Origin: Streptomyces sp. NBC_01445
Lineage (GTDB): Bacteria > Actinomycetota > Actinomycetes > Streptomycetales > Streptomycetaceae
Assembly: GCF_035918235.1 (NCBI RefSeq)
Contig: NZ_CP109486.1
Span: 744,001 to 808,000 of the forward strand
DNA length: 64,000 bases
Direction of reading: 5' to 3'
The stretch's first letter is position 1. Each line of letters starts with the position of its first letter. Below are positions 34,059-52,731 of the stretch, piece after piece. The notes beneath the pieces were generated by a model. The model had not been told where the DNA came from. It did not search any database and worked only from the letters and a program-made list of their open reading frames with translations. The position numbers and the translations under genes were made by a program.

Positions 34059-34819
34059 CGCTGTCCCTCCACGTCGGCCGGGACGGGGTCGAAGTCGACG
34101 ATCAGTACGTCGCGGTGGCTGGGGCGGGCCGGGTCGACGGGGGCCAGGGGTGTCACGTCGTGCAGCACCTTGCGGTCGTCGACCAGGAGCTGGTCGCCGG
34201 GTTCGCCGAGGGTGACCGCGAACAGTTGGTTGCCGTCGTCGTCGTAGAGGGAGCTCTCGCCGCCACTGACGTTGGTGCGGTTGACCAGGAGCGAGGTGAC
34301 GTAGGCCCCGCCGTCGCGGTGGCGGCCCTGAGGGGCGGGCCTGCCGGTCTGGTCGGGGCTGGTCACGATCCGGAACGGGTGCAGCTTGACATCCCAGAGC
34401 CGGACGCCTTCGGCCCGGGAGAACACGTCGCCGAGCAGGTGCACGACGGCGGCCGTCAGAGGGTCGGCGAGGAACGCCTCGGTGAGCGGGTCGAAGCTGC
34501 GCTGCATGCCGCCGTTGAGCGGGTTGAGGGCGCTGTCCTGGAAGTAGGGGGCATGGGGCTGCGCGGTCAGCTCGCCGGTGCGGGCGTCGAGGCGGAAGTG
34601 CCCGTAGCGCCGGTAGCGGTAGGTGCCCCCGTCCTTCATGAAGGTGTCGAGGGTGAGGTCGTCCCAGTGGCGGGCGAAGCGCGCCCAGTCCTGAGGGCCG
34701 GTGCCGGTGAGCCGGCGCACCTCGGGTGCGGTCAGCAGATGGCCGCCCCATCCCGACAGGCCTGTGACGGCGGCGGTCACCGTCCGCGTCTGCGCGGCGG
34801 CCGTGGTGGTCTCGGACAC
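34055..34819 (-). CDS. 2OG-Fe dioxygenase (PF10014-like amino-acid hydroxylase)
   Basis: The protein has 254 residues from GTG 34819, with GAAAGGGG about nine bases upstream. The longer frame to 34933 adds residues without family features. The HxD iron motif appears as GRHRDGGAYVTSLLVNR (about residues 162-178) and the distal His and Arg as KVLHDVTPLAPVDPARPSHRD (read LHDVTPL and SHRDVLI). The N-terminal GHFRLDARTG and PLNGG segments fit the 2OG-Fe dioxygenase family that includes L-isoleucine 4-hydroxylase. It is unrelated in sequence to the two clavaminate-synthase-like enzymes at 18.9-20.9 kb. Coupled to the NRPS downstream, it probably hydroxylates a free amino acid. Confidence 0.8.
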   Translation of the reverse strand: MSETTTAAAQTRTVTAAVTGLSGWGGHLLTAPEVRRLTGTGPQDWARFARHWDDLTLDTFMKDGGTYRYRRYGHFRLDARTGELTAQPHAPYFQDSALNPLNGGMQRSFDPLTEAFLADPLTAAVVHLLGDVFSRAEGVRLWDVKLHPFRIVTSPDQTGRPAPQGRHRDGGAYVTSLLVNRTNVSGGESSLYDDDGNQLFAVTLGEPGDQLLVDDRKVLHDVTPLAPVDPARPSHRDVLIVDFDPVPADVEGQR

Positions 34820-34948
34820 GAGGTCGAGCCCCTTTCGGTGGGCGGCCGGGGACAGGGCCCCGGCGGCGGTGCGGACGGATCGCATCGGCACGCGTCGCCC
34901 AGGTGAGGCCCCGCGAGCGGTCTTTGGATGCAACAGGCCCGCACGCCG

Positions 34949-34982
34949 GTGCGGCAGTCAGGACATTGCCTGACTGCCGCAC
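34949..34982. promoter_or_regulatory. Perfect 14-bp inverted repeat in a divergent promoter region
   Basis: GTGCGGCAGTCAGG (34949-34962) and CCTGACTGCCGCAC (34969-34982) are exact inverted copies separated by ACATTG. The site lies between the divergent dioxygenase operon (start 34819) and the C-T NRPS (start 35046), where a terminator has no upstream gene to serve. A dimeric regulator binding site controlling both directions is the most economical reading. Confidence 0.6.
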
Positions 34983-35045
34983 GCGTCCGGGCCGACCGAC
35001 CATCCCGGTAAGGGCTGCCCGAGCAGTCGGACAGGGAGGGTGACG

Positions 35046-36747: not shown

Positions 36748-37455
36748 ATGTTGAGTGCGGCGGTTCTGTGCTTCGCACCCGCCGGTGCGGGAGCGAGCTT
36801 CTTCCACCCGTGGCTGGGGCAGCGCGAGGGCCTTACGGTGCTCCCGGTCGAACTGCCCGGCCGGGAGAAGCGGTTCGCCGAGCCCGAGTGCACCGAGCTC
36901 GGCGCCCTGATGGACGCGGTCCTGCCCGCCCTGCGGTCCGCGACGGCCGGTTTCGACAAGGTCGCCGTCCTCGGACACAGCTTCGGCGCGCTGCTCGCCT
37001 ACGAGGCGACGCGCGCGCTCGCCGCGGAGCGGGACGGGCTGACGCTGGTGGCCTCCGGCGCGACGTGGCCGGGCACACTGCGCCGCGGGCGGATCACCGG
37101 CCTGGCCGACGACGAGTTCATCGCAGGTATCCACACGATCGCCGGATACCGCCACCCGGCCCTGGACGAGCCGGAGTTGCGCGATCTGGTGCTGCCGCCA
37201 CTGCGCACCGACGTCGCGATGCACGAGAACTACACGTACGTCGAGCGTGAGCCCCTCGACGTGCCGGTCCTCGCGGTACGCGGCGACGCCGACCGGCTGG
37301 TGTCGGCCGACGACCTCACCGAGTGGGAGCGGGTCACCACCGGCACGGTGACCGTCGCGGAGCTCACCGGTGCCCATATGTATCTGGTGGAGGAGTGGCC
37401 CGCGCTGCTCGACCTGCTCGCCGGGCAGCTCCTCGGCGCCGGGACGCCGTCATGA
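36748..37455 (+). CDS. Type II thioesterase (alpha/beta hydrolase)
   Basis: The protein has 235 residues with ATG 36748 behind GGAGAG. It has an N-terminal FAPAGAGASFFHPW strand-loop, the nucleophile elbow LGHSFGALLAYE (Ser78), a C-terminal Asp in RGDADRLVS and the catalytic His in LTGAHMYLVEEWP. This is the stand-alone TEII family that removes stalled or mis-primed acyl groups from NRPS/PKS carriers. Its stop overlaps the ATG of the SDR gene. No integrated type I thioesterase was seen in any NRPS of the window, so final release must come from elsewhere. Confidence 0.92.
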   Translation: MLSAAVLCFAPAGAGASFFHPWLGQREGLTVLPVELPGREKRFAEPECTELGALMDAVLPALRSATAGFDKVAVLGHSFGALLAYEATRALAAERDGLTLVASGATWPGTLRRGRITGLADDEFIAGIHTIAGYRHPALDEPELRDLVLPPLRTDVAMHENYTYVEREPLDVPVLAVRGDADRLVSADDLTEWERVTTGTVTVAELTGAHMYLVEEWPALLDLLAGQLLGAGTPS

Positions 37456-38282
37456 GCGGACGGCTCACGGGCCGGACCGCGATCGTCACCGGCGCCGGGC
37501 GGGGCGTCGGGCGTGCCTGCGCCACGGCGTTCGCCGCGCAGGGCGCCGACCTGGTCCTGGTCGACATCGCCGCCGACCTCCCGCACGTCCCCTACCCCGC
37601 GGCCACCCCGAGCCAGCTCGACCACACCGCCCGGCTGTGCCGCGAGCAGGGGGCCGCCGTGCTCACCGCACGCGCCGACGTGCGGGACGCGGCGGCCTGC
37701 GAGCGGGTGGTGGCCGATGCCGTGGACCGCTTCGGTTCGCTGGACGTGCTGGTCAACAACGCGGGGATCGCGGGTCCTTCGGGCCGGATCGTGCACGAGG
37801 TCACCGAGGACGAGTGGGCGGTGATGATCGACGTCAACCTCAACGGCGCCTGGCGGATGCTGAAGGCCGCGGGGGCGTCGATGGTGGCGGCCCGCTCCGG
37901 CTCCATCGTCAACATCGCCTCCACCGCCGGTCTGGTGGGGTACCGAAACTTCGCCGGCTACGTGGCGTCCAAGCACGGCCTGGTCGGCCTGACGAAGGCC
38001 GCCGCCCTCGACTACGCGCCGTACCGGGTGCGGGTGAACGCGGTCTGCCCCGGCTCGGTGCGCGACGGCGAGGAGTGGGAGGGCCGGATGCTGGTGGAGA
38101 TCGGCCGCAGCATCGGGATCGAACCGGCCGACCACGAAGCCGAGTTCATCACGCAGATGCCCATGAACACGCTGGTGGAGGCGGACGATGTGGCGGGGGC
38201 CGCCCTGTGGCTCGCCTCCGAGGAGTCCCGTCACTCCACCGGCGGTGTGATCACCGTCGACGCCGGCTACAGCGCCCGTTGA
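37452..38282 (+). CDS. Short-chain dehydrogenase of the mycofactocin-coupled type
   Basis: The protein has 276 residues from ATG 37452, overlapping the thioesterase stop. Classical SDR motifs: TGAGRGVGRA (14-23), VNNAGIAG (101-108), Ser157 in NIASTAG, and Tyr170/Lys174 in GYVASKHG. After beta-2 there is the insertion DIAADLPHVPYPAATPSQLD (39-58), the sequence feature that sets apart mycofactocin-dependent SDRs with tightly held NAD. If the assignment holds, the enzyme uses the peptide-derived cofactor mycofactocin for electron recycling, which is rare inside NRPS clusters. The likely substrate is an alcohol or ketone in the product. Confidence 0.88.
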   Translation: MSGRLTGRTAIVTGAGRGVGRACATAFAAQGADLVLVDIAADLPHVPYPAATPSQLDHTARLCREQGAAVLTARADVRDAAACERVVADAVDRFGSLDVLVNNAGIAGPSGRIVHEVTEDEWAVMIDVNLNGAWRMLKAAGASMVAARSGSIVNIASTAGLVGYRNFAGYVASKHGLVGLTKAAALDYAPYRVRVNAVCPGSVRDGEEWEGRMLVEIGRSIGIEPADHEAEFITQMPMNTLVEADDVAGAALWLASEESRHSTGGVITVDAGYSAR

Positions 38283-38305
38283 CCCGGACCGGTCAGGAGA
38301 CGCCC

Positions 38306-41068
38306 GTGTCGTCCAACTCCCCTTCGGTCGCCGCCCGGCACGCCGCCGTGTACGCGGTCGCCCCCGGATACTCGGCCGAGGACTGCCGCGCCGCGCTCGC
38401 CGGCGCCCCGTGGCCCGGCCCCGGCCGGTTGCGCCTGTGGGCCGAGCCGGTGCCCGCCCCCTCGGACAGCCCCGCTGCCCTGCGCCGCCGCACCCGCGAG
38501 CTGCACGGCCGTCACGGGGGCGAAGGTGTCCGGCTCACCCTGCTCGAATACGCCGACGGGGTACGGGATCTGGTGGCCGTGACCGGCCCCGGCGACGACG
38601 GCCCCGACCGCCTGGACCGCGCCGCGCTGGCCGCCCTCGGCCCGGCGCGGCCCCTGGCCCGCTCGGGAACCCCTTCGGACCCCGGGTGCCGGGAGGTGCC
38701 GGTCCCGGGGCTCGGAGCGGGCGGGGCCATGGCCACGGCCGCGGACCTGGCGGCGGCTCTGCTCCTGATCGCCGCCAGGACGCGGGCGCAGGACGAGCCG
38801 GTCATCCTGGACGTCGCCGTCCACACCACCGACGGGGTGCGCCGCGTCTCGCTCCGCGTGGCCGCGTTGGACGAGGACCAGCCGGTGTCCGCCTACCGGG
38901 CCTGGGTGCGCGAGCAGGCGGAGCAAACCGGTGCCCAGGACGGCGGCGGGCCGCGGCTCGCCCTCGATGTGGACCTGCGGCCGCGGGCGGTGCCCGCGGT
39001 GCGGCGGCTGCCCGCGCTGGACGCCCGCCACCCGGTCACCGTGCGGGTCACCGCCTCCGACACGGACGGCACCCCGCAGGTGCACTGCTGGACCCTGCCC
39101 GGAGCGCCCGCGGACCAGCTGCCGACAGACTTGGAGCAGCAACTCGCCGTAGTGGCACACCAGTTGCTGTGCGGGGACCAGAATCTCCCGCTGGCCGACG
39201 TCGCGTTGCACGAGCCGGCCGAGCGAGCCCGCATCCTGGATCTCGGCCGCACCCCGCGCGCCGCGGACAGCGGGCCGCGCCGCATCGACCAGCTGGTCCG
39301 GGACCGCGCCGAGCAGACCCCGGACGCCGTCGCCCTGAGAGACCCGCAGGGCGAGCACACCTGGACGTACCGCGAACTCGTCGACAGGAGCGACCGGTTC
39401 GCGGCCGCTCTGCGAGGGCTCGGTGTGCGCCCGGGCGACCGCGTCGGGGTGTGCCTGGACCGTTCGGCACAGCTGGTGTCGGTGCTCCTCGCGGTGATGA
39501 CGGCGGGCGCCGCCTACGTACCGCTGGACCCCACCTATCCGGCCGACCGCCTGGCCTACACCGCCGACGACGCGGGCCTGTCCCTGGTGGTGGTCGAGGA
39601 CGACGGCAAGGACGACGGCAACGCCTTCGCCGACCACGCCACCGTGACCCTGCCGCGCCTGCGGGAACTCGCCGCCGGACAGGGCGCGTGGGAGGAGCCC
39701 GGCACGGTGGGGCCGGACGATCCGGCGTACATCATCTACACGTCGGGCTCCACCGGGCGCCCCAAGGGCGTCGTCGTGCCGCACCGCAACGTGGGGCGCC
39801 TCCTGGATGCCACGGCCGACGACTTCCGCCTGGGCCCGCAGGACGTGTGGACGTGGTTCCACTCGGCGGCGTTCGACTTCTCGGTCTGGGAGATCTGGGG
39901 CGCTCTGGGCACCGGAGGGCGCCTGGTCGTCGTGCCGTACTGGACCTGCCGCTCCCCCGAGGACTTCCGCGCGCTGCTCCTCGACGAACGGGTGACGGTG
40001 CTCAACCAGACCCCGTCGGCCTTCTCCCGGCTGCTGCCCCTGGAGCGAGCGGCGCCGGCGCCGCTCGCCCTGAGGCTCGTCGTCTTCGGCGGTGAGCCGC
40101 TCGACGCCCGCGCCCTGCTCCCGTGGTTCGACACGCATCCGGAGTCCGCGTGCCGGATGGTCAACATGTTCGGCATCACGGAGACCACCGTGCACGTGAC
40201 GGCCCAGACCGTCACCCGCGCCGACGCCCTCGCCTCCTCGCAGTCGGTGGGCCGCGCGCTGCCCGGCTGGAGCGTGCGGGTCCTCGACACACGCGGCAGG
40301 CTGGTGCAGCCCGGCTGCGTGGGCGAGATAGCGGTCGGCGGGGACGGCCTCGCCCTGGAGTACCTGGGACGGCCCGAGCTGACCGCCGAGCGGTTCGTAC
40401 CCGACCCGGACGGCGAAGGCCGCCTCTACCTCAGCGGCGACAAGGGCCGGCAGCTGCCCGACGGCCGCCTGGAGCATCTGGGTCGCCTCGACAGCCAGGT
40501 CAAGCTGCGCGGTCACCGCATCGAACTCGACGAGATCCGCTCGGTGCTGCTCACCCACCCCTCGGTGCGTGCCGCGGCGGTCGTGCTGACCCGCCCCACG
40601 GACGCGAACGGCGAGGACGCCACCCTCGACGCGTACGCCGTACTGGACGGGGCCGACGCCCGCGAGGTCCGCCGGCACGCCGCCCGGCTGCTGCCCGAGT
40701 ACATGCTGCCCGCCACCGTCACCCCGCTCGCCGAGCTGCCGCTCACCGTGAACGGGAAGGTGGACGTGGCCGCGCTGCCCGCACCCCGGGCCGCCGGCGG
40801 TGAACTCCCTTGTGTGGCGGACGAGTCCGCACAGGGCACGCTGGCCGCCGTGCTCGCCGCCTGGCACACCGCGTTCGGCGAACAGGTCGCGGCCGGCGAC
40901 GACTTCTTCGAGCTGGGCGGCAACTCGCTGCGCGCACTGCGCGTCGTGCACCTGCTGCGGGACGCGGGCGTCCGTGTCGACGTGCGCGACGTGTACCGGC
41001 TGCGCACCCCGTCGGCGCTGGCCGAGGCCGCCTCCACGGCGCCCGCCGAGGCGGCGAGGACGGCCTGA
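38306..41068 (+). CDS. NRPS A(Thr)-T protein with a decayed N-terminal condensation-like domain
   Basis: The protein has 920 residues from GTG 38306, behind AGGAGA. Residues 1 to about 320 end in a normal C-to-A linker (ERARILDLGRTPRA) but lack HHxxxDG and are only about 70% of a C domain's length, so this looks like a vestigial C domain. A domain about 325-820: YTSGSTGRPKGV (about 478) and SQVKLRGHRIE. The pocket code D-F-W-N-V-G-M-V-H matches the threonine code DFWNIGMVH almost exactly. T domain about 840-905: DDFFELGGNSLRALR (Ser about 872). It probably supplies threonyl-T in trans, for example to the upstream C-T protein. Confidence 0.92.
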   Translation: MSSNSPSVAARHAAVYAVAPGYSAEDCRAALAGAPWPGPGRLRLWAEPVPAPSDSPAALRRRTRELHGRHGGEGVRLTLLEYADGVRDLVAVTGPGDDGPDRLDRAALAALGPARPLARSGTPSDPGCREVPVPGLGAGGAMATAADLAAALLLIAARTRAQDEPVILDVAVHTTDGVRRVSLRVAALDEDQPVSAYRAWVREQAEQTGAQDGGGPRLALDVDLRPRAVPAVRRLPALDARHPVTVRVTASDTDGTPQVHCWTLPGAPADQLPTDLEQQLAVVAHQLLCGDQNLPLADVALHEPAERARILDLGRTPRAADSGPRRIDQLVRDRAEQTPDAVALRDPQGEHTWTYRELVDRSDRFAAALRGLGVRPGDRVGVCLDRSAQLVSVLLAVMTAGAAYVPLDPTYPADRLAYTADDAGLSLVVVEDDGKDDGNAFADHATVTLPRLRELAAGQGAWEEPGTVGPDDPAYIIYTSGSTGRPKGVVVPHRNVGRLLDATADDFRLGPQDVWTWFHSAAFDFSVWEIWGALGTGGRLVVVPYWTCRSPEDFRALLLDERVTVLNQTPSAFSRLLPLERAAPAPLALRLVVFGGEPLDARALLPWFDTHPESACRMVNMFGITETTVHVTAQTVTRADALASSQSVGRALPGWSVRVLDTRGRLVQPGCVGEIAVGGDGLALEYLGRPELTAERFVPDPDGEGRLYLSGDKGRQLPDGRLEHLGRLDSQVKLRGHRIELDEIRSVLLTHPSVRAAAVVLTRPTDANGEDATLDAYAVLDGADAREVRRHAARLLPEYMLPATVTPLAELPLTVNGKVDVAALPAPRAAGGELPCVADESAQGTLAAVLAAWHTAFGEQVAAGDDFFELGGNSLRALRVVHLLRDAGVRVDVRDVYRLRTPSALAEAASTAPAEAARTA

Positions 41069-41881: not shown

Positions 41882-42913
41882 TTGCCGACGGCCACGACGT
41901 CCTTTCTGGACCAGAAAATCGTCCTTGACCACGGGACCGGGGCCCGGCTCAGCCGGGAACTCGTCGAGTTCGTCGTGGAGGTGCTCGGGGACGTCTACCT
42001 CGGCGAGATGGAGGACAGCGCCATCCTCCCGCCGCTGGACGGCGCTCTCGCCATGACCACCGACTCCTTCGTGGTGGACCCGCCGTTCTTCGGCAACGGC
42101 GACATCGGCAAGATCGCGGTGTGCGGCACCGTCAACGACCTCGCGGTGGCCGGCGCCGAGCCCCGCTACCTCACCCTGGCGATGATCCTGGAGAGCGGGT
42201 TCCCGCTCTCCGGGCTGCACCGCGCCCTGGAGTCCGTCCGGGACACCGCGCGCGAGGCGGGCATCAAGATCGTCGCCGGTGACACCAAGGTCGTCGGGGA
42301 GGGCGAGGCCGACGGCATCTTCCTCAACACCACCGGCGTCGGCGTCTTCACCTCCCCGCCCAAGCGCATGAAGGACGTGGCCGTAGGCGACAAGATCCTG
42401 CTCAGCGGCCCCATCGGCGACCACACCATCCATCTCCTCTCGGTGCGCGAGGGCCTCGGCTTCGAGAAGAACGTGCTCAGCGACTGCGCCCCGCTGAACA
42501 ACATGATCGACACGGTCCGCGGCGCGGTGCCCGAGTCCGCGGTGCGCTCCATGCGCGACGTGACGCGCGGCGGCCTCAACGCGGTGCTGCACGAGTACGC
42601 CTCCGCCCTCGGCCACGCCGTACGGGTCGAGGAGGAGGCGCTGCCGATCAGCTTCGAGACGGCGATGGCCGCGGACATGCTCGGCATCAACCCGATCAAC
42701 TGCGCCAACGAGGGCTGTCTGGCGCTGTTCGTGGCGCCCGAGCACGCGGACGAGGTCCTGCGCGTGCTGCGCAGCCACCCCTACGGCAAGGACGCCGTCA
42801 TCGTCGGCGAGGTCACCGCACGCCCGGAGCCGGTCGTGGAGATGGCCGGCAAGGACGGCCGGATCCAGGAGATCGAGGAACTGCAGGGCGCCGAACTTCC
42901 CCGGCTGTGCTGA
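41882..42913 (+). CDS. hypE: HypE homologue (carbamoyl dehydratase, cyanide-group formation)
   Basis: The protein has 343 residues from TTG 41882, with GGGAG seven bases upstream. It has the AIR-synthase/PurM-like ATP-binding fold: LAMTTDSFVVDPPFFGNGDIGKIAVC (read TDSFVV and GNGDIGK), GTVNDLAVAGAEP, VAGDTKVV, and GPIGDHTIHLLSVREGL. It ends in LPRLC, with the C-terminal Cys that in true HypE (PRIC) carries the carbamoyl group and dehydrates it to a thiocyanate. In hydrogenase maturation HypE takes the group from HypF. Here no hydrogenase or other hyp gene is present and the gene is 22 bp from a hypF homologue inside an NRPS cluster, so a biosynthetic role is likely. Confidence 0.88.
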   Translation: MPTATTSFLDQKIVLDHGTGARLSRELVEFVVEVLGDVYLGEMEDSAILPPLDGALAMTTDSFVVDPPFFGNGDIGKIAVCGTVNDLAVAGAEPRYLTLAMILESGFPLSGLHRALESVRDTAREAGIKIVAGDTKVVGEGEADGIFLNTTGVGVFTSPPKRMKDVAVGDKILLSGPIGDHTIHLLSVREGLGFEKNVLSDCAPLNNMIDTVRGAVPESAVRSMRDVTRGGLNAVLHEYASALGHAVRVEEEALPISFETAMAADMLGINPINCANEGCLALFVAPEHADEVLRVLRSHPYGKDAVIVGEVTARPEPVVEMAGKDGRIQEIEELQGAELPRLC

Positions 42914-42935
42914 TCCGAGGACCCGAGGAGGAGTC

Positions 42936-45311
42936 ATGGCAGAGACCGAGCAGTGGCTGATCCGGGTGACCGGGGTGGTGCAGGGCGTGGGCTACCGGCC
43001 CTTCGTGCACACCCTGGCCACCGGCCTGGACCTGAGAGGCTGGGTCCTCAACGACACGCTGGGCGTCCAGACCGAGGTGTCCGGCGGGGCCGGCGAACTC
43101 GCGGAATTCGCGGGGGCGCTCAAGGACCGCGCCCCGCTGCTCGCCCGCGTCGAAGAGGTGCGCGTGGAGTCGCGGACGCCCCGGGCGGCCGGTGACCTGC
43201 CGACGGGCTTCGAGATCCGGGAGAGCCGGCGCACCGGGCGGGCGAACACCATCGTCGCCCCGGACTCGCACGTGTGCGACGACTGTCTGCGCGAGGTCCT
43301 CGACCCCGCCGACCGCCGGTTCCGCTACCCGTTCACCAACTGCACCCACTGCGGGCCCCGTTACTCCCTGATCAAGGGCCTGCCCTACGACCGTGAGAAG
43401 ACCACGATGGCCGTCTTCGCGATGTGCGAGGACTGCCGCGCCGAGTATGTGAACCCCGCGGACCGCCGCTACCACGCGCAGCCCACCGCCTGCCCGCGGT
43501 GCGGCCCGAAGGTGACCCTGTCCGCGCCCGACGGGGTGGTGGCCGAGGCCGAAGAGGCGCTGACGCGCACCATCAGGGCGCTCGCCGACGGCCAGATCGT
43601 CGCCGTCAAGAGCGTCGGCGGGTTCCACCTCGCGGTGAACGCGCGTGACGCGGCGGCCGTGGCCCGGCTGCGGCGCCGCAAGAAGCGGGACTCCAAGCCG
43701 TTCGCGGTGATGGCCGCGGGCCTCGACGAGACGGCCGGGATCGCCCACATCACGGACGCCGAGCGGGAGTTGCTGCGTTCCCCGGCCCGCCCCATCGTGC
43801 TGCTGCGCAAGCTGCCGGGCGCACTGCCCGAGGAGGTCGCCCCGCGCAACCCGAACCTCGGTGTGATGCTGCCGTCGGCTCCGCTGCACCAACTGCTTCT
43901 CGACCGGCCGGAGTCGGACGTCCTCGTGATGACCAGCGGGAACATCTCCGGCCAGCCGATCGCGTACCGCAACGAGGACGCGCTGGCCGAGCTGTTCGAG
44001 GTCGCCGACCTGATCCTGCACCACGACCGGGACATCCACGTCCGCGTGGACGACTCGGTGGTACGCAGCTCCGTGCACCCGGCCCTGGACGAGCCGATCA
44101 TCACGTTCCTGCGGCGCTCGCGCGGCTACGCCCCCTACCCGGTGAAGGTCGACGACATCGCCGGACCGGTCATCGCGTACGGCGCGGAGCTCAAGACCAC
44201 GGTCGCGCTCGGCGACGGCAACGAGGTCTACGTCAGCCAGCACATCGGCGACCTGAAGAACGACGAGACCTACGCCTCGCACCGCGAGGCCGCGGCCCAC
44301 CTCGCCGAACTGTACGAGCTGAAGCCCCGGCACGCCGCCTGCGACCTGCACCCCGCCTTCAGGGCCCGGGTGCTGGCCGGGACCGACCGGCCCGACGACG
44401 TCGTCGAGGTCCAGCACCACCATGCCCACATGGCGTCCTGCATGGCCGAGAACCGGCTCAGCGGACCCACCATCGGCGTCGTCTTCGACGGCGCCGGCTA
44501 CGGCGAGGACGGCACCATCTGGGGCGGCGAGTTCCTCGTCGGCGACTTCGCCTCGGTGCGCCGGGCGGCCCATCTACGGCCGGTCCCGCTGCTCGGCGGC
44601 GACAAGGCGGTGGCCGAGCCGGTGCGCACCGGATACGCGCTCGCGCTGCAGGCACTCGGCTCCCCCGAGCGGGCCGTCGCCGCGTTCCCCGCGCTGGAGA
44701 TCCTCGACGACCGCAAGCGCACCGTGTTCGCGACCATGGCCGAACGCGGCATCCAGGCCCCGCCGGTGTCCAGCATGGGACGGCTCTTCGACGCGGTGGC
44801 CGCCCTGCTCGGCGTGTGCGCCTACGCCGAGTACGAGGCACACGGCCCGATCGAACTGGAGGGGCTGCTGGGCCGCGACCTCGCCCTGACCGCGCCCTAC
44901 GCCTTCGGACTCCAGCAGGAGGGCGACACCGAGCTCGTCGACCCGAGGCCGCTCGTGCGGGCGATCGCCGCGGACCTGGCACGCGGCACCGGCGTCACCG
45001 ACATCAGCCGGCGCTTCCACTCCACGGTGGTCGACATGGTCGTCAAGCGGTGCAGCGCGCTGCGCGAACGCACCGGCATCCGCCAAGTGGTGCTCTCCGG
45101 CGGCGTCTTCCTCAACGAGTTCCTTCAGGTCAACTGCCTCGTGGAGCTGCGCAGGGCGGGCTTCGACGCCCATGCCCACCGCCTGGTGCCCACCAACGAC
45201 GGCGGTATCGCGCTCGGCCAGGTGATGGTCGCGAACGCACGCCTTCGTGACAGCCCGGACATCACAGACAGCCCGGACACCCCGAACCCCGGCACGAACG
45301 AATGCCGCTGA
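42936..45311 (+). CDS. hypF: HypF homologue (carbamoyltransferase)
   Basis: The protein has 791 residues, with ATG 42936 behind GAGGAGGAG. All HypF parts are present. The acylphosphatase domain is GVVQGVGYRPFVH (residues 13-25). Paired zinc fingers have CDDC and CTHC, then CEDC and CPRC (about 114-190). The YrdC-like domain includes KSVGGFHLAV (about 226) and MTSGNISGQPI. The Kae1/TsaD-like domain has VQHHHAHMASC (about 490-500), FDGAGYGEDGTIWGGE and LSGGVFLNEF. HypF hydrolyses carbamoyl phosphate, makes carbamoyl-AMP and transfers the carbamoyl group. TobZ-type antibiotic O-carbamoyltransferases keep only YrdC and Kae1 parts, so a full HypF beside HypE implies the complete cyanide-making pair. 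Confidence 0.92.
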   Translation: MAETEQWLIRVTGVVQGVGYRPFVHTLATGLDLRGWVLNDTLGVQTEVSGGAGELAEFAGALKDRAPLLARVEEVRVESRTPRAAGDLPTGFEIRESRRTGRANTIVAPDSHVCDDCLREVLDPADRRFRYPFTNCTHCGPRYSLIKGLPYDREKTTMAVFAMCEDCRAEYVNPADRRYHAQPTACPRCGPKVTLSAPDGVVAEAEEALTRTIRALADGQIVAVKSVGGFHLAVNARDAAAVARLRRRKKRDSKPFAVMAAGLDETAGIAHITDAERELLRSPARPIVLLRKLPGALPEEVAPRNPNLGVMLPSAPLHQLLLDRPESDVLVMTSGNISGQPIAYRNEDALAELFEVADLILHHDRDIHVRVDDSVVRSSVHPALDEPIITFLRRSRGYAPYPVKVDDIAGPVIAYGAELKTTVALGDGNEVYVSQHIGDLKNDETYASHREAAAHLAELYELKPRHAACDLHPAFRARVLAGTDRPDDVVEVQHHHAHMASCMAENRLSGPTIGVVFDGAGYGEDGTIWGGEFLVGDFASVRRAAHLRPVPLLGGDKAVAEPVRTGYALALQALGSPERAVAAFPALEILDDRKRTVFATMAERGIQAPPVSSMGRLFDAVAALLGVCAYAEYEAHGPIELEGLLGRDLALTAPYAFGLQQEGDTELVDPRPLVRAIAADLARGTGVTDISRRFHSTVVDMVVKRCSALRERTGIRQVVLSGGVFLNEFLQVNCLVELRRAGFDAHAHRLVPTNDGGIALGQVMVANARLRDSPDITDSPDTPNPGTNECR

Positions 45312-45342: not shown

Positions 45343-46686
45343 ATGCGGACCGCAGATCTGACGCTGGACACCGTCGTGCGCCTGCTGAGTGAGAACGAGG
45401 CGAGCGCACGGCAGACCCTGAGCATGGTGCCGTCGGAGACCTCCATGTCGGGGCTGGCCAAGTTGCCCATGCTTCTCGACCCGTACCACCGCTACTTCTT
45501 CAACGAGGGCGACGACCCCGACCGCTGGCACTTCCGTGGCGCGCAGCGGCTGCGCGACCTGGAGATGGAGCTGACCATCCCGCTCCTGCAGGAACTGGGC
45601 CGGGCCTCGTACGCCTCGGTGCGGCCGCTGAGCGGTCTGAACGGGATGACGCTGGTGCTCGGCGCGCTCGGCGGCGAACCGGGTTCCACGGTCGTCACCG
45701 TCTCCCCGGAGCAGGGAGGCCACTACGCGACGCCGCAGGTGGCCGGCCGGCTCGGCCTCGATGTGGAGTTCCTGCGCGGCCCCGACCCGCACTCACTCGA
45801 CCTCGAGCACGCGGCCGAGCTCCTCGCCCGGGTGCGTCCCTCGCTGGTGTACGTGGACCAGTCGCACTGCCTGTTCCCCGTCGATGTGAAGTCCTTGGTG
45901 GAGACGGTGCGGCAGGCCTCGCCCGGCACGCTGGTGCACGTGGATGCGAGTCACTGGCTCGGCCTGGTACTCGGGGACGCGTTCCCCAACCCGCTGGACC
46001 AGGGCGCGGACAGCTGGGGCGGCTCCACCCACAAGACGTTCCCCGGCCCGCAGAAGGCGGTCGTGCTGACGCGGGACCCACAGGTGGAGCAGCTGATCCG
46101 CGACGCCCAGGACTTCCTCATCAGCAACCACCACTTCGCCGCGACCATCGCGCTGGGCATATCGCTGCTCGAGTTCCGCGAGTTCGGCCCCGCCTACACC
46201 CGGGCGGTCCTGGAGCACACCGGCCGCTTCGGCAGGCTCCTGACCGAGCGGGGCCTGACCGTGGTCGCCGCCGACCGCGGCTACTCCGCGGGGCACCAGC
46301 TGTGGCTCGACACGGAGGCCGACGGCATCGCGCCGAAGGACGCGGCCGCCCGGCTCTCCGCCGCCAGCCTCAAGGTCAACTTCATGGCCGGGCTGCCGGG
46401 CTTCACCGGGCAGGGCGTGCGCATCGGCCTCAACGAGGCCACGTACCAAGGGCTTTCGGGTGACGACATCGACGAGCTCGCCGACATCTTCGTGGCGGCC
46501 GTGCGCGACACCGAACCGGCCGCCCTGCTCGCCGAGCGCACGGCCGCGCTGCGCACCCGGACCCCGTTCGGCGCTTGTGCGGCCGATGGCAGTCCGCTGC
46601 TCGCCACGGCTCTGGACCTGTGCGAGGGCGCCCTGCGGCGCACCGGCGCGGCCGCCGGGCGTCCCCTGACAGAGGCGTCCCGGTGA
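45343..46686 (+). CDS. Serine hydroxymethyltransferase-like PLP enzyme
   Basis: The protein has 447 residues from ATG 45343 (GGAGG upstream). The fold-type I SHMT family layout is seen: ENEASARQTLSMVPSETSMS near the N-terminus (cf. ENYxS), VRPLSGLNGMTLV (about 90), HVDASHWLGLVLG (PLP Asp, about 202) and the Schiff-base Lys in GSTHKTFPGPQKAVV (about residue 230), followed by GxGVRIGLNEAT. SHMT-type enzymes interconvert Gly and Ser or act as beta-hydroxy-amino-acid aldolases and alpha-methylserine synthases. In this cluster it may make a non-standard beta-hydroxy amino acid. It overlaps the next gene by GTGA. Confidence 0.85.
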   Translation: MRTADLTLDTVVRLLSENEASARQTLSMVPSETSMSGLAKLPMLLDPYHRYFFNEGDDPDRWHFRGAQRLRDLEMELTIPLLQELGRASYASVRPLSGLNGMTLVLGALGGEPGSTVVTVSPEQGGHYATPQVAGRLGLDVEFLRGPDPHSLDLEHAAELLARVRPSLVYVDQSHCLFPVDVKSLVETVRQASPGTLVHVDASHWLGLVLGDAFPNPLDQGADSWGGSTHKTFPGPQKAVVLTRDPQVEQLIRDAQDFLISNHHFAATIALGISLLEFREFGPAYTRAVLEHTGRFGRLLTERGLTVVAADRGYSAGHQLWLDTEADGIAPKDAAARLSAASLKVNFMAGLPGFTGQGVRIGLNEATYQGLSGDDIDELADIFVAAVRDTEPAALLAERTAALRTRTPFGACAADGSPLLATALDLCEGALRRTGAAAGRPLTEASR

Positions 46687-47399
46687 GCCGGCCGGTCATC
46701 GGCATCGCCTCGTACCGCGACCGCGCGCGCTGGAACATCTGGGACACGGACGCGACGGTGCTCCAGCAGGGGTACGTCGACGGGGTGCGCCGGGCGGGCG
46801 GCCGTGCCGTCGTGCTGCCGCCCGACGACACCGACGCGGACGTGGTGGCCCGTCTCGACGGGCTCCTGCTGCCCGGCGGCGCCGACGTCGACCCCGCGCG
46901 CTACGGTGCCGCCCGCCATCCGCGCACGGACACTCCGTCGGCCGACCGGGACGCCGGGGAGCTGCTGCTGCTCGAGGCGGCGCTCGCCACGGGACTGCCC
47001 GTCCTCGGGGTGTGCCGCGGGCTCCAGCTGCTCGCCCTCGCCTACGGCGGCACCCTGCACCAGCATCTGCCCGATCTGGTCGGGCACAGCGGCCACTGCC
47101 CGGCCGAGGGTGTCTTCGGCCGGCACCCCGTGCACCTGGTGCCCGGCAGCCGGGCCGCCGCGCTGTACGGGGAGCTGGCCGAGGTCAACTCGCACCACCA
47201 TCAGGCCGTGCTCGATCCGGGCGGACTGCACGTGACCGGACGTAGCGAGGACGGCGTGGTGGAGGCGGCCGAGGACCCGTCCAGGCCGTTCGTCCTCGGC
47301 GTCCAGTGGCACCCCGAAGTCTCCGACGACCGGAAGCTGTTCGCGGCGTTCGTCGCGGCCTGCACCACCCGGTCACTGCGCACAGCGGCATCCGTCTGA
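46683..47399 (+). CDS. Class I glutamine amidotransferase, PuuD-type gamma-glutamyl hydrolase
   Basis: The protein has 238 residues from GTG 46683, which overlaps the SHMT-like stop. It has an N-terminal GIASYRDRARW strand, an oxyanion segment LLPGGADVDPARYG, the nucleophile GVCRGLQLLALAYGG (Cys about residue 107) and the His/Glu pair LGVQWHPEVS near 205. This is the family of gamma-glutamyl-GABA hydrolase PuuD and folylpoly-gamma-glutamate hydrolases, not a synthetase-bound amidotransferase. A gamma-glutamyl group could be used as a temporary amine protector in the pathway and removed by this enzyme. A LysA-like decarboxylase in the left arm would fit such a scheme, as in butirosin biosynthesis. 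Confidence 0.85.
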   Translation: MSRPVIGIASYRDRARWNIWDTDATVLQQGYVDGVRRAGGRAVVLPPDDTDADVVARLDGLLLPGGADVDPARYGAARHPRTDTPSADRDAGELLLLEAALATGLPVLGVCRGLQLLALAYGGTLHQHLPDLVGHSGHCPAEGVFGRHPVHLVPGSRAAALYGELAEVNSHHHQAVLDPGGLHVTGRSEDGVVEAAEDPSRPFVLGVQWHPEVSDDRKLFAAFVAACTTRSLRTAASV

Positions 47400-47493: not shown

Positions 47494-50400
47494 GTGCACA
47501 CTCACGTCCGTCCCGTCGGCGGCACACTGGTCGACATCCTGCGCGACCGGGCGGACGCCACTCCGCACCGCACCGCCCTGGAATTCATCCGCGACGACGG
47601 CAGCGAACACGCCGTCGGCTACGCGGCGTTGGACCGCAGGGTGCGCGCGGTCGCCGCCGCGCTCACCGAGCGCGGCCTGCGTGGCGAGCGCGTCCTGCTG
47701 CTGTTCCCGCCGGGCGAGAACTATGTGACGGCCTTCCTCGGCTGTCTGTACGCGGGCGCTGTCGCCGTGCCCGTGTATGTGCCGACCGGCAAGCGCGGCC
47801 TGTCGGCGGTCCTTGCGACCGGGGCGGACGCGGGCGCCGTGCTCGCGCTGAGCAGCCGCGAGGTGACGGACGCGATCACGGCCTCGTACCCGGAGCTGAC
47901 CACGTCGGGGCTGATCCAGTGGCTGGTCACCGAGGACATCGCGGACGCGGCGGCCGACGACTGGCCGGGCGCGGGCCCCGCGCCCGCCGACCTGGCCTTC
48001 CTGCAGTACACGTCCGGGTCCACCGGGACGCCCAAGGGCGTAATGGTGCGGCACGACAACCTGGTGCACAACTCGGCGTCCATCAGCACCGCCCTGGGCG
48101 TCGGTCCGGACAGCCGGGGCGTGAGCTGGCTGCCGCCATATCACGACATGGGCCTGATCGGCGGCATCCTGCAGCCCTTGTACGCGGGATTCCCGTGCAC
48201 CCTGATCTCCCCGATGGCGTTCGTACGCAGCCCGTACCGCTGGCTCGACGCCATCAGCAGGCACCGCGCGACGGTGTCGGCGGCCCCCGACTTCGCGTAC
48301 GGCGAGTGTGTGCGCCGCATTCCCGAGGACAAGCGCGCCGAGCTCGATCTGAGCAGCTGGCAGCACGCCATGGTGGGTGCCGAACCTGTGCGGCCCGCGA
48401 CCCTGGACGCCTTCGCGCGCGCCTTCGCGGACAGCGGGTTCGACCGGTCGGCCTTCCACCCCTGCTACGGGCTCGCCGAGGCGACGTTGTTCGTCACCGG
48501 CGGCGCGCCCGAGCGGGGCGAGCCCCGGGTGCTGCGCGCCGACCGTCGCGAACTGGAGCTGGGCCAGGCCGTGTCGGCCACCGCGGGCAAGGAGAACCAG
48601 GAGAACGCTGCTGTGCTGACGGGCTGCGGCCGGTCGCGCAGCGAGGACGTCGTCGTGGTGGTGGACCCGGCCGAGGGCCGTGCGTGCCCGCCCGGCGGGA
48701 CCGGCGAGGTGTGGGTGAGCGGCCCGACCGTCACCGCGGGCTACTGGGGCCGGCCCGAGCTGACCGACGAGGTCTTCCGCGCCACCCTGGAGTCCCACCC
48801 GGGGCGGCACTTCCTGCGCACCGGTGACCTCGGATTCACCCTGGGCGACGAGCTGTTCGTGACCGGCCGCGCCAAGGACCTCCTGGTGGTGCGCGGCCGC
48901 AACCACTACCCGCAGGACATCGAGCAGAGCGCCGAGCACGCCCACCCGCTGCTGCAGCCGACCCGGGCGGCGGTGTTCTCGCACGACGACGGGACCGAGG
49001 AGCGGGCCGTCCTGGTGCACGAGGTGGTCCGCGGCTTCGACCCCGAACGCGCCCCCGAGGTGATCGCGGCGGTCCGCAAGGCGGTGACGGCCGAACACGG
49101 GCTCTCCCTGCACGAGGTGGTGCTGGTGCGGCCCGGAGCGATTCCCCGTACCACGAGCGGCAAGGTGCGCCGCAGCACCTGCCGCGAGCGGTGGCTGGAC
49201 GGCACTTTGCAGCCGATCGCGACCGGCGGCGCGGACACCGCGCCCGACGCCGGGGGCGGTGACATGCCCCCGGTGTCGCGGGCGGTCGCCGAGGTCGTCG
49301 CCCTGGAACTCGACGTGCCCGCCGAACAGCTGCCGCCCGGTGTGCCGTTGGTGGTCCTCGACCTCGACTCGCTGCGGGCCGTGCGGCTCGCCGAAGCGGT
49401 GCGTGAGCGCTTCGGGCTCCGGGTGTCCCCCGCCGAGCTCCTCGACGGGCTGACGCTTGCGGGCCTGAGCTCCCTCGTCGATGCCGTCGACGACGTGGCC
49501 GAGGCACACGTCGGTGCCGACGACACCGAGGCCGCCGACGCGCCCGCGAGCCGGGCGCAGGAGTGGATGTGGCTCCTCGACGCCATGGGCGGCGGCGCGG
49601 CGTACCACGTGGCGGGCGGCATCGACCTGCACGGCCCTGTCGACCCGGAGTTGCTGCGCGCGAGCCTGGAGGACCTGGTGGCGCGCCACCCGGCGCTGCA
49701 CAGCGGATTCACCTCCGACCCCGAGGGCACCCTGCGGCGCACGCCGCTCGCCCCCCGCCCCTTCGAGCTGCCGGTGGTGGAGCCGAGCGCGGACCGGGAC
49801 GCCCGCGCAGTCGCGGCCGAACTCGCCCGGGAGCCGTTCGACCTGGCGGCGGGGCCGTTGCTGCGCGCGGTCCTCGTGCGGGCCGGCACGCGCGAGTGGA
49901 CGCTCGCGGTGGCCGCCCACCACATCGCGGTGGACGGCTGGTCACTGGGCCTGCTGCTGCGCGAACTCGGGATCTGCTACCGCGACCGACTCGCGGGGCG
50001 CAGCCCGTCCCGCACCGTCGTCACGGTTCCCGCGCCGAAGAGCGCGGGCGACGACGCGGAGGCCACCGCGTTCTGGCAGGAGACCCTGGCCGGGGCGCAG
50101 GCGGTGTCGCTGCCGCTGGACCCGGCCCCGCACCCGAGCCCCTTCAAGGGCTCCGCCCTGCCCTTCACCCTGCCCGCGCCGGTGGTGGCCCGGCTCAAAC
50201 GCTATGGGGCCAAGCGCCGTTCGACCCTGTTCATGGTGATCCTCACCGGCCTGTCCGCTGTGCTGAGCCGGTGGACCGGCCAGCAGGACCTGGTGGTCGG
50301 TGCCGTTACGGCCGGCCGCCACCGTCCCGGCAGCGGTGACCTGGTCGGGCTGTTCGTCAACACCCTGCCGTTGCGCGTCGAGGCCTCCGGTGACCCCGCC

Positions 50401-52731
50401 TTCGGTGAGCTGCTGTCCCGGGTCCGCTCCTCGTGCCTGGCCGCCTACCGGCACCAGGACCTCCCCCTCGAGGAGATCGTCCGGCTGACCGGCGCGGACC
50501 GCGCCGACGGGCGGGCCCCACTGGTGCGTGTGGCGCTCGCCCTGCAGAACCTGCCGGTGGCGCCCTGGCAGTCCGGCGAGGTGCGCGCCGAGCCCTTCGA
50601 GCTCCCTTCTCCCGGCGCGCAGTTCGAGCTGTCGCTGCATCTGACGGAGGAGAGCGACGGCAGCCTGACGGGCCACGCCGTCCACGCCACGGACCTGATC
50701 TCCGCACCGAGCGCGCGCCGCATCCTGCAGGCCCTGACGCTGGCCCTCGAAGCCGTGCCGGGGCCGCCGGGGGCGGCGGCGACAGATCTTCCGATGCTCG
50801 CCTCGCACGAACTCGACCGGGTGGTGAGCAAGTTCAGCGGCTCGGACACGCCGCTCGACGACGGCCTGGTGCACGCCGGTTTCGAGCGGCAGGCCCGGCT
50901 CACCCCGAACGCACCGGCCGTCGTGTGGGACGGCGGCGCGCTGTCGTACGCACAGCTGGACGCCCGGGCGAACCAGCTGGCCAGGCGGCTGCGCTCCCTG
51001 GGCGCGTCCCCCGATCAGGTGGTGGCGGTGCACCTGCCGCGCTCCCCCGAGCTGGTCGTCGCGCTCCTTGCGGTCGTCAAGGCGGGCGGTGCCTATCTGC
51101 CGCTCGACCCGGACCACCCGCGCGCCCGGCTCGCCCTGCAACTCGCCGACGTGACCCCGTCGCTGCTGGTGACGTCGCGGGATGCCGCGCACGGCGGAGC
51201 GGGCGAACTCGCGGCAGGCTCGCCCGGTCTGACGCTCGTCGAGATCGACGACCCGGCCCTGGCCGAACTGCCGGACGGCCCCCTCGACGAGGTCGCGCGG
51301 CCGGACAACCTGCTGTACATCCTGCACACCTCCGGCACGACGGGCACCCCCAAGGGTGTGATGAACCAGCATGCCGGCGTGGCCAACCGGATGGCCTGGA
51401 TGCAGGAGAAGTATCCGCTCGTGGCCGGAGAACGCGTGCTGCACAAGACGCCCGTCGGGTTCGACGTGTCCGGCTGGGAGATCTGGTGGCCGCTCGGCCA
51501 CGGCGCGACGATCGTGCTCGCCCGGCCCGGCGGCCACCAGGATCCCGGGTATCTGGTGCGGTCCGTCATCGACCACGCGGTGACGACCTGTCACTTCGTG
51601 CCGTCCATGCTGCGCGTGTTCCTCGACGAAACCACGGCCGCGACGGCCGCGGGGACGCTGCGCCGGGTCGTGTGCAGCGGTGAGGCACTGCCGCCGGACG
51701 TGGCCGCCCGGTTCCACAGTCTGCTGCCGGGCGTGGAGCTGCACAACCTGTACGGGCCGACCGAGGCCGCCATCGACGTCACCGCGGAGCAGGTCGAGCC
51801 CGGCGCGACCGACCGGCCCCGGCTGCCGATCGGACGCCCGGTGCCCGGCGTACGCCTGTACGTGCTGGACGGACGGGGCAATCCCACGCCCGTCGGCGTG
51901 CCCGGCGAACTGCACATCGGCGGCCCCCAGGTGGCGCGCGGCTACTTCGGACGGCCGTCGCTGACCGCGGCTGCCTTCGTCCCCGACCCGTTCGGCTCCG
52001 GGGGGCGGCTCTACCGCACCGGCGACCGGGCGTGCTGGACCGAGGACGGCACCCTCGACTACCTCGGCCGCATCGACCACCAGGTCAAGATCCGCGGCCA
52101 GCGGGTGGAGCCCGGCGAGTCGGAGGCGGTGCTGGCCAGGCACCCGGCCGTCGGCGACGCCGTGGTCGTGCCCCGCCGGCAAGGCGGCGAGATGTATCTG
52201 GCCGCCTACCTGGTGGCCGCGGCCGGCGCCGAGCAGCCGGACCCGGCACAACTGCGGGAGCACCTCTCTCTCAGCCTGCCACCGGCGATGATCCCTTCGG
52301 CCTACACATGGCTGGACGCGCTGCCGGTGGGCGCCAACGGAAAGCTGGACCGCGACGCGCTGCCGGAGCCGGAGCAGAACCTCGCCGGCGGCGAGCACGT
52401 GGCGCCGCGCGACGCGGCCGAGCAGCGGGTGGCCGAGGTGTGGTGCGAGGTCCTGGGCCTCGAGGAGGTCTCGGTGACAGCCGACTTCTTCGCGCTCGGC
52501 GGGCACTCGCTGCAGGCGACCCGGATCGCACTGCGGCTGCGCGAGGCGTTCGGGGCGGAGTTCTCGGTCGCCGACCTGCTGACCGGAGTGCCCACCGTGG
52601 AGCAGACGGCACGGCTTCTGACGCAGCGCCAGGTGGCGGAGAGCGACCCGGAGGAGCTGGCCCGGCTCCTCGACCAGCTGTCCGGGCTGTCCGACGACGA
52701 AGTGGCCGACCTGCTGCAGCAGCAAGGCTGA
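47494..52731 (+). CDS. FAAL-ACP-C-A(Ser)-T lipo-initiation synthetase
   Basis: The protein has 1745 residues from GTG 47494, behind CAGGAGGG. Fatty acyl-AMP ligase covers about 1-575 (LQYTSGSTGTPKGVMV about 170; SWLPPYHDMGLIGG; PCYGLAEATLFVTGG). ACP is at about 590-665 (LDLDSLRAVRL, Ser about 625). C is at about 685-1100 (HHIAVDGWS about 808). A is at about 1120-1620 (LHTSGTTGTPKGVM about 1278). T is at about 1640-1715 (FFALGGHSLQA, Ser about 1670). The pocket code D-V-W-H-V-S-L-I-D is serine. The protein would adenylate a free fatty acid, load its own ACP and acylate Ser. It is the probable start of the peptide and makes the product a lipopeptide. Confidence 0.95.
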   Translation: MHTHVRPVGGTLVDILRDRADATPHRTALEFIRDDGSEHAVGYAALDRRVRAVAAALTERGLRGERVLLLFPPGENYVTAFLGCLYAGAVAVPVYVPTGKRGLSAVLATGADAGAVLALSSREVTDAITASYPELTTSGLIQWLVTEDIADAAADDWPGAGPAPADLAFLQYTSGSTGTPKGVMVRHDNLVHNSASISTALGVGPDSRGVSWLPPYHDMGLIGGILQPLYAGFPCTLISPMAFVRSPYRWLDAISRHRATVSAAPDFAYGECVRRIPEDKRAELDLSSWQHAMVGAEPVRPATLDAFARAFADSGFDRSAFHPCYGLAEATLFVTGGAPERGEPRVLRADRRELELGQAVSATAGKENQENAAVLTGCGRSRSEDVVVVVDPAEGRACPPGGTGEVWVSGPTVTAGYWGRPELTDEVFRATLESHPGRHFLRTGDLGFTLGDELFVTGRAKDLLVVRGRNHYPQDIEQSAEHAHPLLQPTRAAVFSHDDGTEERAVLVHEVVRGFDPERAPEVIAAVRKAVTAEHGLSLHEVVLVRPGAIPRTTSGKVRRSTCRERWLDGTLQPIATGGADTAPDAGGGDMPPVSRAVAEVVALELDVPAEQLPPGVPLVVLDLDSLRAVRLAEAVRERFGLRVSPAELLDGLTLAGLSSLVDAVDDVAEAHVGADDTEAADAPASRAQEWMWLLDAMGGGAAYHVAGGIDLHGPVDPELLRASLEDLVARHPALHSGFTSDPEGTLRRTPLAPRPFELPVVEPSADRDARAVAAELAREPFDLAAGPLLRAVLVRAGTREWTLAVAAHHIAVDGWSLGLLLRELGICYRDRLAGRSPSRTVVTVPAPKSAGDDAEATAFWQETLAGAQAVSLPLDPAPHPSPFKGSALPFTLPAPVVARLKRYGAKRRSTLFMVILTGLSAVLSRWTGQQDLVVGAVTAGRHRPGSGDLVGLFVNTLPLRVEASGDPAFGELLSRVRSSCLAAYRHQDLPLEEIVRLTGADRADGRAPLVRVALALQNLPVAPWQSGEVRAEPFELPSPGAQFELSLHLTEESDGSLTGHAVHATDLISAPSARRILQALTLALEAVPGPPGAAATDLPMLASHELDRVVSKFSGSDTPLDDGLVHAGFERQARLTPNAPAVVWDGGALSYAQLDARANQLARRLRSLGASPDQVVAVHLPRSPELVVALLAVVKAGGAYLPLDPDHPRARLALQLADVTPSLLVTSRDAAHGGAGELAAGSPGLTLVEIDDPALAELPDGPLDEVARPDNLLYILHTSGTTGTPKGVMNQHAGVANRMAWMQEKYPLVAGERVLHKTPVGFDVSGWEIWWPLGHGATIVLARPGGHQDPGYLVRSVIDHAVTTCHFVPSMLRVFLDETTAATAAGTLRRVVCSGEALPPDVAARFHSLLPGVELHNLYGPTEAAIDVTAEQVEPGATDRPRLPIGRPVPGVRLYVLDGRGNPTPVGVPGELHIGGPQVARGYFGRPSLTAAAFVPDPFGSGGRLYRTGDRACWTEDGTLDYLGRIDHQVKIRGQRVEPGESEAVLARHPAVGDAVVVPRRQGGEMYLAAYLVAAAGAEQPDPAQLREHLSLSLPPAMIPSAYTWLDALPVGANGKLDRDALPEPEQNLAGGEHVAPRDAAEQRVAEVWCEVLGLEEVSVTADFFALGGHSLQATRIALRLREAFGAEFSVADLLTGVPTVEQTARLLTQRQVAESDPEELARLLDQLSGLSDDEVADLLQQQG

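Follow-up and report, generated by a model that had tools for sequence, protein, structure and literature searches.

The DNA examined here is a 64,000-nucleotide stretch of Streptomyces sp. NBC_01445 (contig NZ_CP109486.1, positions 744,001 to 808,000; hereafter the window), in which genes for homologues of the hydrogenase maturation proteins HypE and HypF lie next to a gene for an isochorismatase-family cysteine hydrolase, here termed CysH. Taken together, the data show that CysH-HypE-HypF is a conserved module, distinct from hydrogenase maturation in sequence, linkage and genome distribution, and that it sits in biosynthetic-looking loci of Actinomycetota and Proteobacteria. This points to an undescribed route by which metabolites could acquire cyanide or a related one-carbon group.

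Three genes in the window and a separate hydrogenase set

A preliminary description of this DNA had proposed a complete HypE/HypF pair, and the family searches that it suggested confirm the assignment. HypE scores 436 bits against the TIGR02124 hypE model (curated cut-off 251.6) and ends in LPRLC; HypF scores 740 bits against the TIGR00143 hypF model (curated cut-off 466.1). The hypF gene begins 22 bp 3′ of hypE on the + strand, and all the expected HypF domains are present in one protein: acylphosphatase, two zf-HYPF stretches, YrdC, and a Kae1-like domain. What the description left out is CysH, encoded upstream of hypE on the same strand (PF00857, 109.6 bits, 2.3e-31; cut-off 27) and found beside the pair in all 29 related loci considered below.

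The window lies on a 1.04-Mb contig. The other contig of the genome (C1, 10.43 Mb) carries HypE at 569243, HypD at 570354, HypC at 571541, HypF at 571812, and a [NiFe]-hydrogenase large subunit at 579510-581066; these are the sole HypD, HypC and large-subunit matches of this genome. The separate hydrogenase hyp operon that the preliminary description had proposed to look for thus exists. Identity to the C1 counterparts is only 43% for the window's HypE and 46% for its HypF. One more weak match each (HypE, E 5.9e-6; HypF, E 0.004) looks like a distant relative. As had been claimed, no HypD, HypC, or hydrogenase large subunit was found near the pair by tblastn of the window, a search that did not extend to HypA and HypB. 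The window pair is not the genome's hydrogenase maturation set, and its independence from hydrogenase is well supported, because a separate hypCDEF set and hydrogenase lie elsewhere, the trees place the proteins apart, and some genomes with the module lack both HypD and a hydrogenase over the cut-off.

A conserved module

Relatives were drawn from plasmid records, GTDB genome contigs (the best 80 of the matches listed), and 394 Streptomycetaceae genomes. Two sets resulted: a cassette set of 29 loci including the window, whose HypE proteins share 53-100% identity with the window's by tblastn; and a hydrogenase-type set of 68 loci (L059-L126), with HypE 39-49% identical. The cassette set was picked by HypE similarity, not by CysH. 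Nor are its 29 loci independent samples, as L012 is almost the same as the window and several others come from close relatives. Left out of the 29 were HypE fragments (L017, L149), the plasmid matches L151-L153, and shorter copies (L002, L005, L018-L030); L150, with a 44% identical HypE-like protein and no annotated HypF, was counted in neither set.

By tblastn, CysH and HypF lie beside HypE in 29 of 29 cassette loci, and HypD or HypC in none of the 29 stretches. The hydrogenase-type loci show the opposite pattern, with CysH in 0 of 68, HypD in 60, and HypC in 54; seven of the eight that lack HypD are on contigs shorter than 10 kb, and the other, L064, is a 21-kb stretch. A hydrogenase large subunit was detected in one cassette stretch (L013), as compared to nine of the 68. 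Because of its greedy choice of reading frames, neighbour clustering placed the CysH of just 24 loci in one family; tblastn and a motif search recovered all 29. The trio is on one strand in 25 of these loci, and it also appears in the annotation of L151, L152 and L153.

Co-occurrence across the 394 Streptomycetaceae genomes is a cleaner test of linkage than the 29 loci. Here, CysH and HypE were searched separately, with a few candidates per genome scored in each search. CysH (E <= 1e-30) is present in 14 genomes, exactly those 14 with a HypE at least 55% identical to the window's. Four of the 14 (G040, G151, G294, G375) have no HypD match and no large-subunit match over the cut-off; G294 and G375 have one sub-threshold large-subunit match each, and the G151 assembly is in ~440 contigs. 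With L012 left out, pairwise distances over the other 28 loci correlate at 0.96 for HypE-HypF, 0.92 for HypE-CysH, and 0.93 for HypF-CysH, values to which shared ancestry alone adds.

Fragments of cassette-type HypE occur on two Streptomyces plasmids (L017:10242-10694 and L149:8010-8870). Both have an MFS gene upstream and no annotated HypF or cysteine hydrolase, and transposases lie beside the L017 copy. These fragments are probably relics.

Trees and sequence signatures

Comparison with hydrogenase homologues in trees, also proposed in the preliminary description, separates the cassette HypE and HypF proteins from those of hydrogenase type. In the HypF tree (FastTree), in which many rows were flagged for letter make-up, one branch splits the cassette group (29 rows) from the hydrogenase-type group (39 rows), with 99% support for both. 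In the HypE tree (quick method), a single branch again divides the two types; the hydrogenase group (39 rows) has 99% support and the cassette group (29 rows) 61%.

The C-terminus separates the two HypE types. Passages of PMC12130793 describe a PRIC motif as common to all HypE proteins and essential for CN delivery to the HypCD scaffold. The cassette proteins do not carry it: all 29 end in PRLC. PRIC is found in 71 of 72 hydrogenase-type HypE proteins (the 68 loci plus L003, L046, L143 and L144), the exception being L125, which ends without Cys. At thresholds of cassette >= 93% and hydrogenase >= 80%, three positions alone separate the sets: 72 (N in cassette, G in hydrogenase-type), 78 (I, L), and 342 (L, I). 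HypE D61, D86, K136, E277 and C343 are kept in all 29 cassette proteins; we take the Lys and Glu at these places (K136, E277) to be needed for dehydration.

HypE-like proteins of a third group, which share 45-48% identity with the window's HypE by tblastn, are encoded at about 9.4-10.7 kb in each of L138-L142. These proteins end in RLR or RLL, lack the terminal Cys, and have lost several dehydratase residues; neither HypF nor HypD was found in the five stretches. BTAD-type regulators adjoin the HypE-like gene in L138 and L141; one of these two loci also has an amidase, and the other an AfsA match that stays below threshold.

In CysH, C127 and C168 are present in 29 of 29 proteins, D10 and K94 in 27, and C148 in 25. 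The Asp-Lys-Cys set D10/K94/C127 is presumably the isochorismatase-family triad. The predicted structure (pLDDT 93) matches isochorismatase-like hydrolases including triuret and biuret hydrolases and N-carbamoylsarcosine amidase. We also considered whether C127 and C168 form a two-thiol relay. The model puts C127 near a helix start and C168 just before the last strand, positions that would be expected on opposite faces in this fold, and the relay was therefore dropped.

Genomic contexts of the module

The preliminary description had placed the pair in a non-ribosomal peptide synthetase (NRPS) pathway only. This was not borne out, as the module recurs in several other contexts. Seven context groups were assigned from neighbour clustering, family searches on representatives, and deposited annotation. 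Five loci are of the window's type, with NRPS genes and a serine hydroxymethyltransferase (SHMT)-like gene (the window, L012, L127, L128, and L047 from S. fructofermentans). Seven have an ATP-grasp ligase, six of them with a pyridoxal phosphate (PLP)-dependent decarboxylase; the one tested, from L130, has diaminobutyrate decarboxylase as its best family (273 bits, below the cut-off of 900). Four loci, two Streptomyces and two Paraburkholderia, have a class III aminotransferase, with GNAT in three. Diaminobutyrate transaminase families score over their cut-offs in the two tested (TIGR00709 in L049, ectB in L013); L048 holds an aminotransferase fragment only.

Four enterobacterial loci have the order LysR-CysH-HypE-HypF-HAD-MFS, and L056, from a metagenome-assembled genome labelled Deltaproteobacteria, has CysH-HypE-HypF-HAD and groups with them. 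The module is present in 14 of 5426 complete E. coli genomes. In L148 (E. coli NZ_CP148331.1, 150657-157665) it forms a compact island near tRNA-Asn, in which integrase genes are annotated as pseudogenes. Two Nocardia loci have an aminotransferase, a thiamine pyrophosphate enzyme, and a UbiA-type prenyltransferase; two further loci have sugar-type genes. The remaining type, that of S. clavuligerus, comprises four loci, with an arginase-family gene in three, an ATP-grasp gene in three, and DUF3865 in two; the arginase-family gene of L136 scores 153.5 bits against the agmatinase model (cut-off 174.3). On the P. phymatum symbiotic plasmid (L013, 8063-15365), CysH-HypE-HypF stands with the diaminobutyrate transaminase and GNAT genes, an arrangement also annotated in P. 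sabiae and P. phenoliruptrix.

Proposed mechanism

We give about an even chance to the following reading, which is built on sequence conservation: HypF and HypE would make a HypE-bound thiocyanate, and CysH would hand the cyano group (CN) to a small molecule, so that the module would act as a hydrogenase-independent one-carbon donor. The reaction would likely involve: formation of carbamoyl-AMP by HypF from carbamoyl phosphate and ATP, followed by carbamoylation of the terminal Cys of HypE; and ATP-dependent dehydration of the S-carbamoyl group by HypE to thiocyanate. Judging from the conserved residues, both steps would follow the HypEF chemistry of hydrogenase maturation, where these steps are known (passages of PMC12134894).

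In the hydrogenase pathway, CN transfer to iron is proposed, in the same passages, to be reductive and to involve HypD. As the module has no HypCD for reductive uptake onto iron, the CN would be used as an electrophile. CysH C127 may take CN from HypE, or may activate the acceptor, and would then pass CN to a small-molecule nucleophile. The outcome would be a cyanamide, thiocyanate or nitrile, built on by context-specific enzymes, here the NRPS line. At some of the other loci, a neighbouring diaminobutyrate transaminase, or a relative of diaminobutyrate decarboxylase or agmatinase, suggests amine acceptors, and hence a cyanamide or a cyclic guanidine made from it.

The preliminary description had held that the pair donates CN or carbamoyl to the natural product. 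Its separation from hydrogenase stands, and CN, in preference to carbamoyl, is plausible as the donated group because all 29 cassette HypE proteins keep the dehydratase residues.

Several points weigh against the cyano-donor reading. That CN and not carbamoyl is moved, and what the product is, are matters that we infer. CysH belongs to a hydrolase family and may hydrolyse a ureido or amide intermediate instead of moving CN. One Fourier-transform infrared study assigns the CN on hydrogenase HypE as isothiocyanate, so that its form is disputed (part of PMC4506123). Clustering returned no acceptor-making enzyme common to all contexts. In four arginase-type loci, CysH is divergent and ~0.9 kb from HypE. 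The 61% support of the HypE cassette group is against the Cys-less third group, and is this low because the five members of that third group fall close by in the tree. In the two Nocardia CysH proteins (L050:9405-9986, L054:9423-10004), D10 and K94 are replaced by G and R and C127 is kept, a pattern that would fit a thiol-centred role or a decaying enzyme.

The best evidence against full independence from hydrogenase is co-regulation of the module with hydrogenase genes by NifA. The P. phymatum module lies ~4 kb from a hydrogenase operon. In the results excerpted from PMC8305402, log2 changes in a nifA mutant in bean nodules are -7.58 for the transaminase, -8.06 for GNAT, -6.29 for CysH, -5.17 for HypE, and -7.47 for HypF. 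Hydrogenase genes and another hypF (-4.74) also fall in that mutant, and the authors there treat these hyp genes as hydrogenase-related. The plasmid has a second HypE place in addition to the other hypF, which softens this point.

A more specific form of the cyano-donor reading, which we hold tentatively, is that CysH would be a dedicated cyanotransferase that puts electrophilic CN on amines or other nucleophiles, within a mobile module by which many bacteria, including some E. coli, would make cyanamides, cyclic guanidines or nitriles from carbamoyl phosphate. If the cyano-donor reading is true, HypE-bound thiocyanate would be a general electrophilic cyanide donor in biosynthesis and not only a hydrogenase device. 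Such a system could be recognised by a HypE with a PRLC end next to a cysteine hydrolase, a marker by which genomes could be mined for CN-containing or guanidine-type metabolites, and its enzymes would be candidates for mild enzymatic cyanation. Genes now annotated as "hydrogenase maturation" genes would also need correction, among them those of E. coli and those of P. phymatum, whose symbiotic-plasmid operon is NifA-dependent in bean nodules (passages of PMC8305402).

Alternative explanations

Of the alternatives, donation of a carbamoyl group survives best, although we consider it unlikely. Here, the S-carbamoyl group of HypE, not CN, would go to the metabolite, with CysH transferring carbamoyl or acting as a ureido-type hydrolase. 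In favour of this proposal, enzymes for carbamoyl or ureido compounds (triuret and biuret hydrolases, N-carbamoylsarcosine amidase, RutB) are among the closest to CysH in fold and sequence, and many secondary metabolites are carbamoylated (sections of PMC9633730). Class III carbamoyltransferases, however, transfer from carbamoyl-AMP directly to the metabolite with two catalytic domains and no HypE (same source). Retention of the presumed dehydratase residues in every cassette HypE, when the Cys-less HypE-like group has lost several, also argues against it.

Less probable still is a reading in which a small CN compound (cyanide, cyanate, cyanamide or thiocyanate) would leave the module as its product or as a common intermediate. 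The inspected E. coli island has only LysR, CysH, HypE, HypF, an HAD phosphatase and an MFS transporter, so that few further enzymes may be required. Against this, biosynthetic genes surround the module in the NRPS, ATP-grasp and aminotransferase contexts, and the HAD phosphatase would suggest an organic phosphate substrate.

The pair could also be a spare hydrogenase maturation paralogue that feeds the chromosomal HypCD and lies in a biosynthetic cluster by chance. Both genes do exceed the cut-offs of hydrogenase maturation models, the genome has a hydrogenase, and the P. phymatum module depends on NifA along with the nearby hydrogenase operon (PMC8305402, in part). This is nonetheless very improbable given the PRLC end, the distinct tree groups, the linkage to CysH in every cassette locus and to HypD or HypC in none by tblastn (tblastn gave no HypC in L013, although a HypC-family gene ~8 kb from the module is present in its deposited annotation), and the four cassette genomes without HypD and without hydrogenase over the cut-off. 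As the main role of the module, hydrogenase maturation was rejected on the basis of the separate hyp set, the trees, the linkage, and these genomes.

Assembly of a metal-cyanide cofactor (for example iron-cyanide) for another enzyme, with CysH as a scaffold replacing HypCD, would match the only established use of HypE-bound CN to our knowledge, but is the least probable of all, as the CysH fold is that of isochorismatase hydrolases and no gene family beyond CysH, HypE and HypF recurs across all contexts in the clustering. A role as an anti-phage system was dropped: PADLOC gave no match for CysH, HypE or HypF, and the enterobacterial HAD protein was likewise without a match.

The surrounding NRPS cluster

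The module lies inside an NRPS cluster, as the preliminary description had stated, flanked by NRPS, thioesterase, short-chain dehydrogenase/reductase (SDR), SHMT-like, peptidase C26 and cytochrome P450 genes (Table 1). The same cluster is present in L012, a linear 446-kb Streptomyces plasmid (NZ_CP109590.1) with a HypE 99.4% identical to the window's. Neighbour clustering finds the SHMT-like gene family in all five NRPS-type loci; the window's enzyme scores 189.6 bits against the TIGR04506 fluorothreonine transaldolase model, below its cut-off of 650. In the two-adenylation-domain NRPS, the first adenylation domain looks by eye like a fatty-acyl-AMP ligase, judged by its motifs. Reading of the code positions by hand gives a Ser-like code for the second domain and a Thr-like code for the adenylation-carrier protein. 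These two codes are insufficient to derive a product structure from NRPS logic, and the attempt was abandoned.

A TnpB/OrfB-type IS605 gene lies at 58007-59203 (-). Compared with L012, the window has ~1.4 kb more DNA between its alpha/beta hydrolase and enoyl-CoA hydratase genes, so that the element was probably inserted after the window and L012 split.

Table 1. Genes of the module and of the surrounding cluster, in window coordinates.
Feature	Position	Strand	Basis
Adenylation protein	30651..34058, start approximate	-	annotated counterpart in L012; adenylation-domain motif in longer reading frame 30651-36515
2-Oxoglutarate-Fe dioxygenase	34055..34933	-	PF10014 4.3e-64
Condensation-carrier protein	35040..36695	+	PF00668, PF00550
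Thioesterase	36748..37455	+	PF00975
SDR oxidoreductase	37452..38282	+	PF13561; start inferred from L012 annotation
Adenylation-carrier protein	38300..41068	+	PF00501, PF00550; start inferred from L012 annotation
CysH, isochorismatase-family cysteine hydrolase, 195 aa	41156..41743	+	PF00857; triad D10/K94/C127 intact
HypE, cassette type, C-terminus LPRLC, TTG start	41882..42913	+	TIGR02124
HypF, full four-domain carbamoyltransferase	42936..45311	+	TIGR00143; PF00708, PF07503 x2, PF01300, PF17788, PF22521
SHMT-like PLP enzyme, directly after HypF in NRPS-type loci	45343..46686	+	PF00464; start inferred from L012 annotation
Peptidase C26 / gamma-glutamyl hydrolase-like	46683..47399	+	PF07722 7e-62; start inferred from L012 annotation
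NRPS, two adenylation, one condensation, two carrier domains	47494..52731	+	PF00501 x2, PF00668, PF00550 x2, PF23024
Stand-alone condensation domain	52757..54145	+	PF00668
Cytochrome P450	54285..55484	+	PF00067; start inferred from L012 annotation

Comparison with known systems

The module shares with the HypE/HypF of [NiFe]-hydrogenase maturation the protein families, the four-domain HypF, and the terminal Cys and dehydratase residues of HypE. It differs in having no linked HypD or HypC, in its PRLC end, in its CysH partner, and in its mostly biosynthetic contexts; hydrogenase and HypD are absent from four of 14 cassette genomes, and the hydrogenase of the window's own genome is on another contig.

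The closest earlier observation is that of PMC7794033 (2020), passages of which report hypE and hypF homologues with an ATP-grasp ligase, and no other hyp genes, in a candidate cluster found by decRiPPter for a ribosomally synthesised and post-translationally modified peptide, and suggest a novel function. That cluster probably belongs to the ATP-grasp context group. Those passages name no cysteine hydrolase partner, PRLC signature, mechanism, or spread to NRPS, enterobacterial and Paraburkholderia loci, which are found or proposed here. A search of the open-licence literature returned no account of the CysH partner or of the wider three-gene module.

Class III carbamoyltransferases (TobZ, GdmN) share YrdC-like and Kae1-like domains and carbamoyl-AMP chemistry with HypF. 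Unlike HypF, they have the two catalytic domains in another order and act directly on the metabolite without HypE (sections of PMC9633730); acylphosphatase and zinc-finger are the extra domains of HypF (PMC9633730 and PMC6022934, in the parts concerned). Both are present in the window protein, which is thus not of the class III type.

The ATP-dependent nitrile enzymes ToyM/QueC, ArtA/NitB, CalN and PesC resemble the proposed module in ATP-driven formation of a C-N triple bond. Compared by description, they convert the metabolite's own carboxylate or amide, unlike the module. HypE finds no match in the main text of a 2026 preprint that names these enzymes (PMC13060819).

Finally, CysH has the fold and Asp-Lys-Cys triad of triuret and biuret hydrolases and N-carbamoylsarcosine amidase. 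With 21-28% identity to these isochorismatase-family enzymes in structural alignments, it forms a tight family of its own, set apart by an invariant Cys168 and by its place beside HypE and HypF in every cassette locus.

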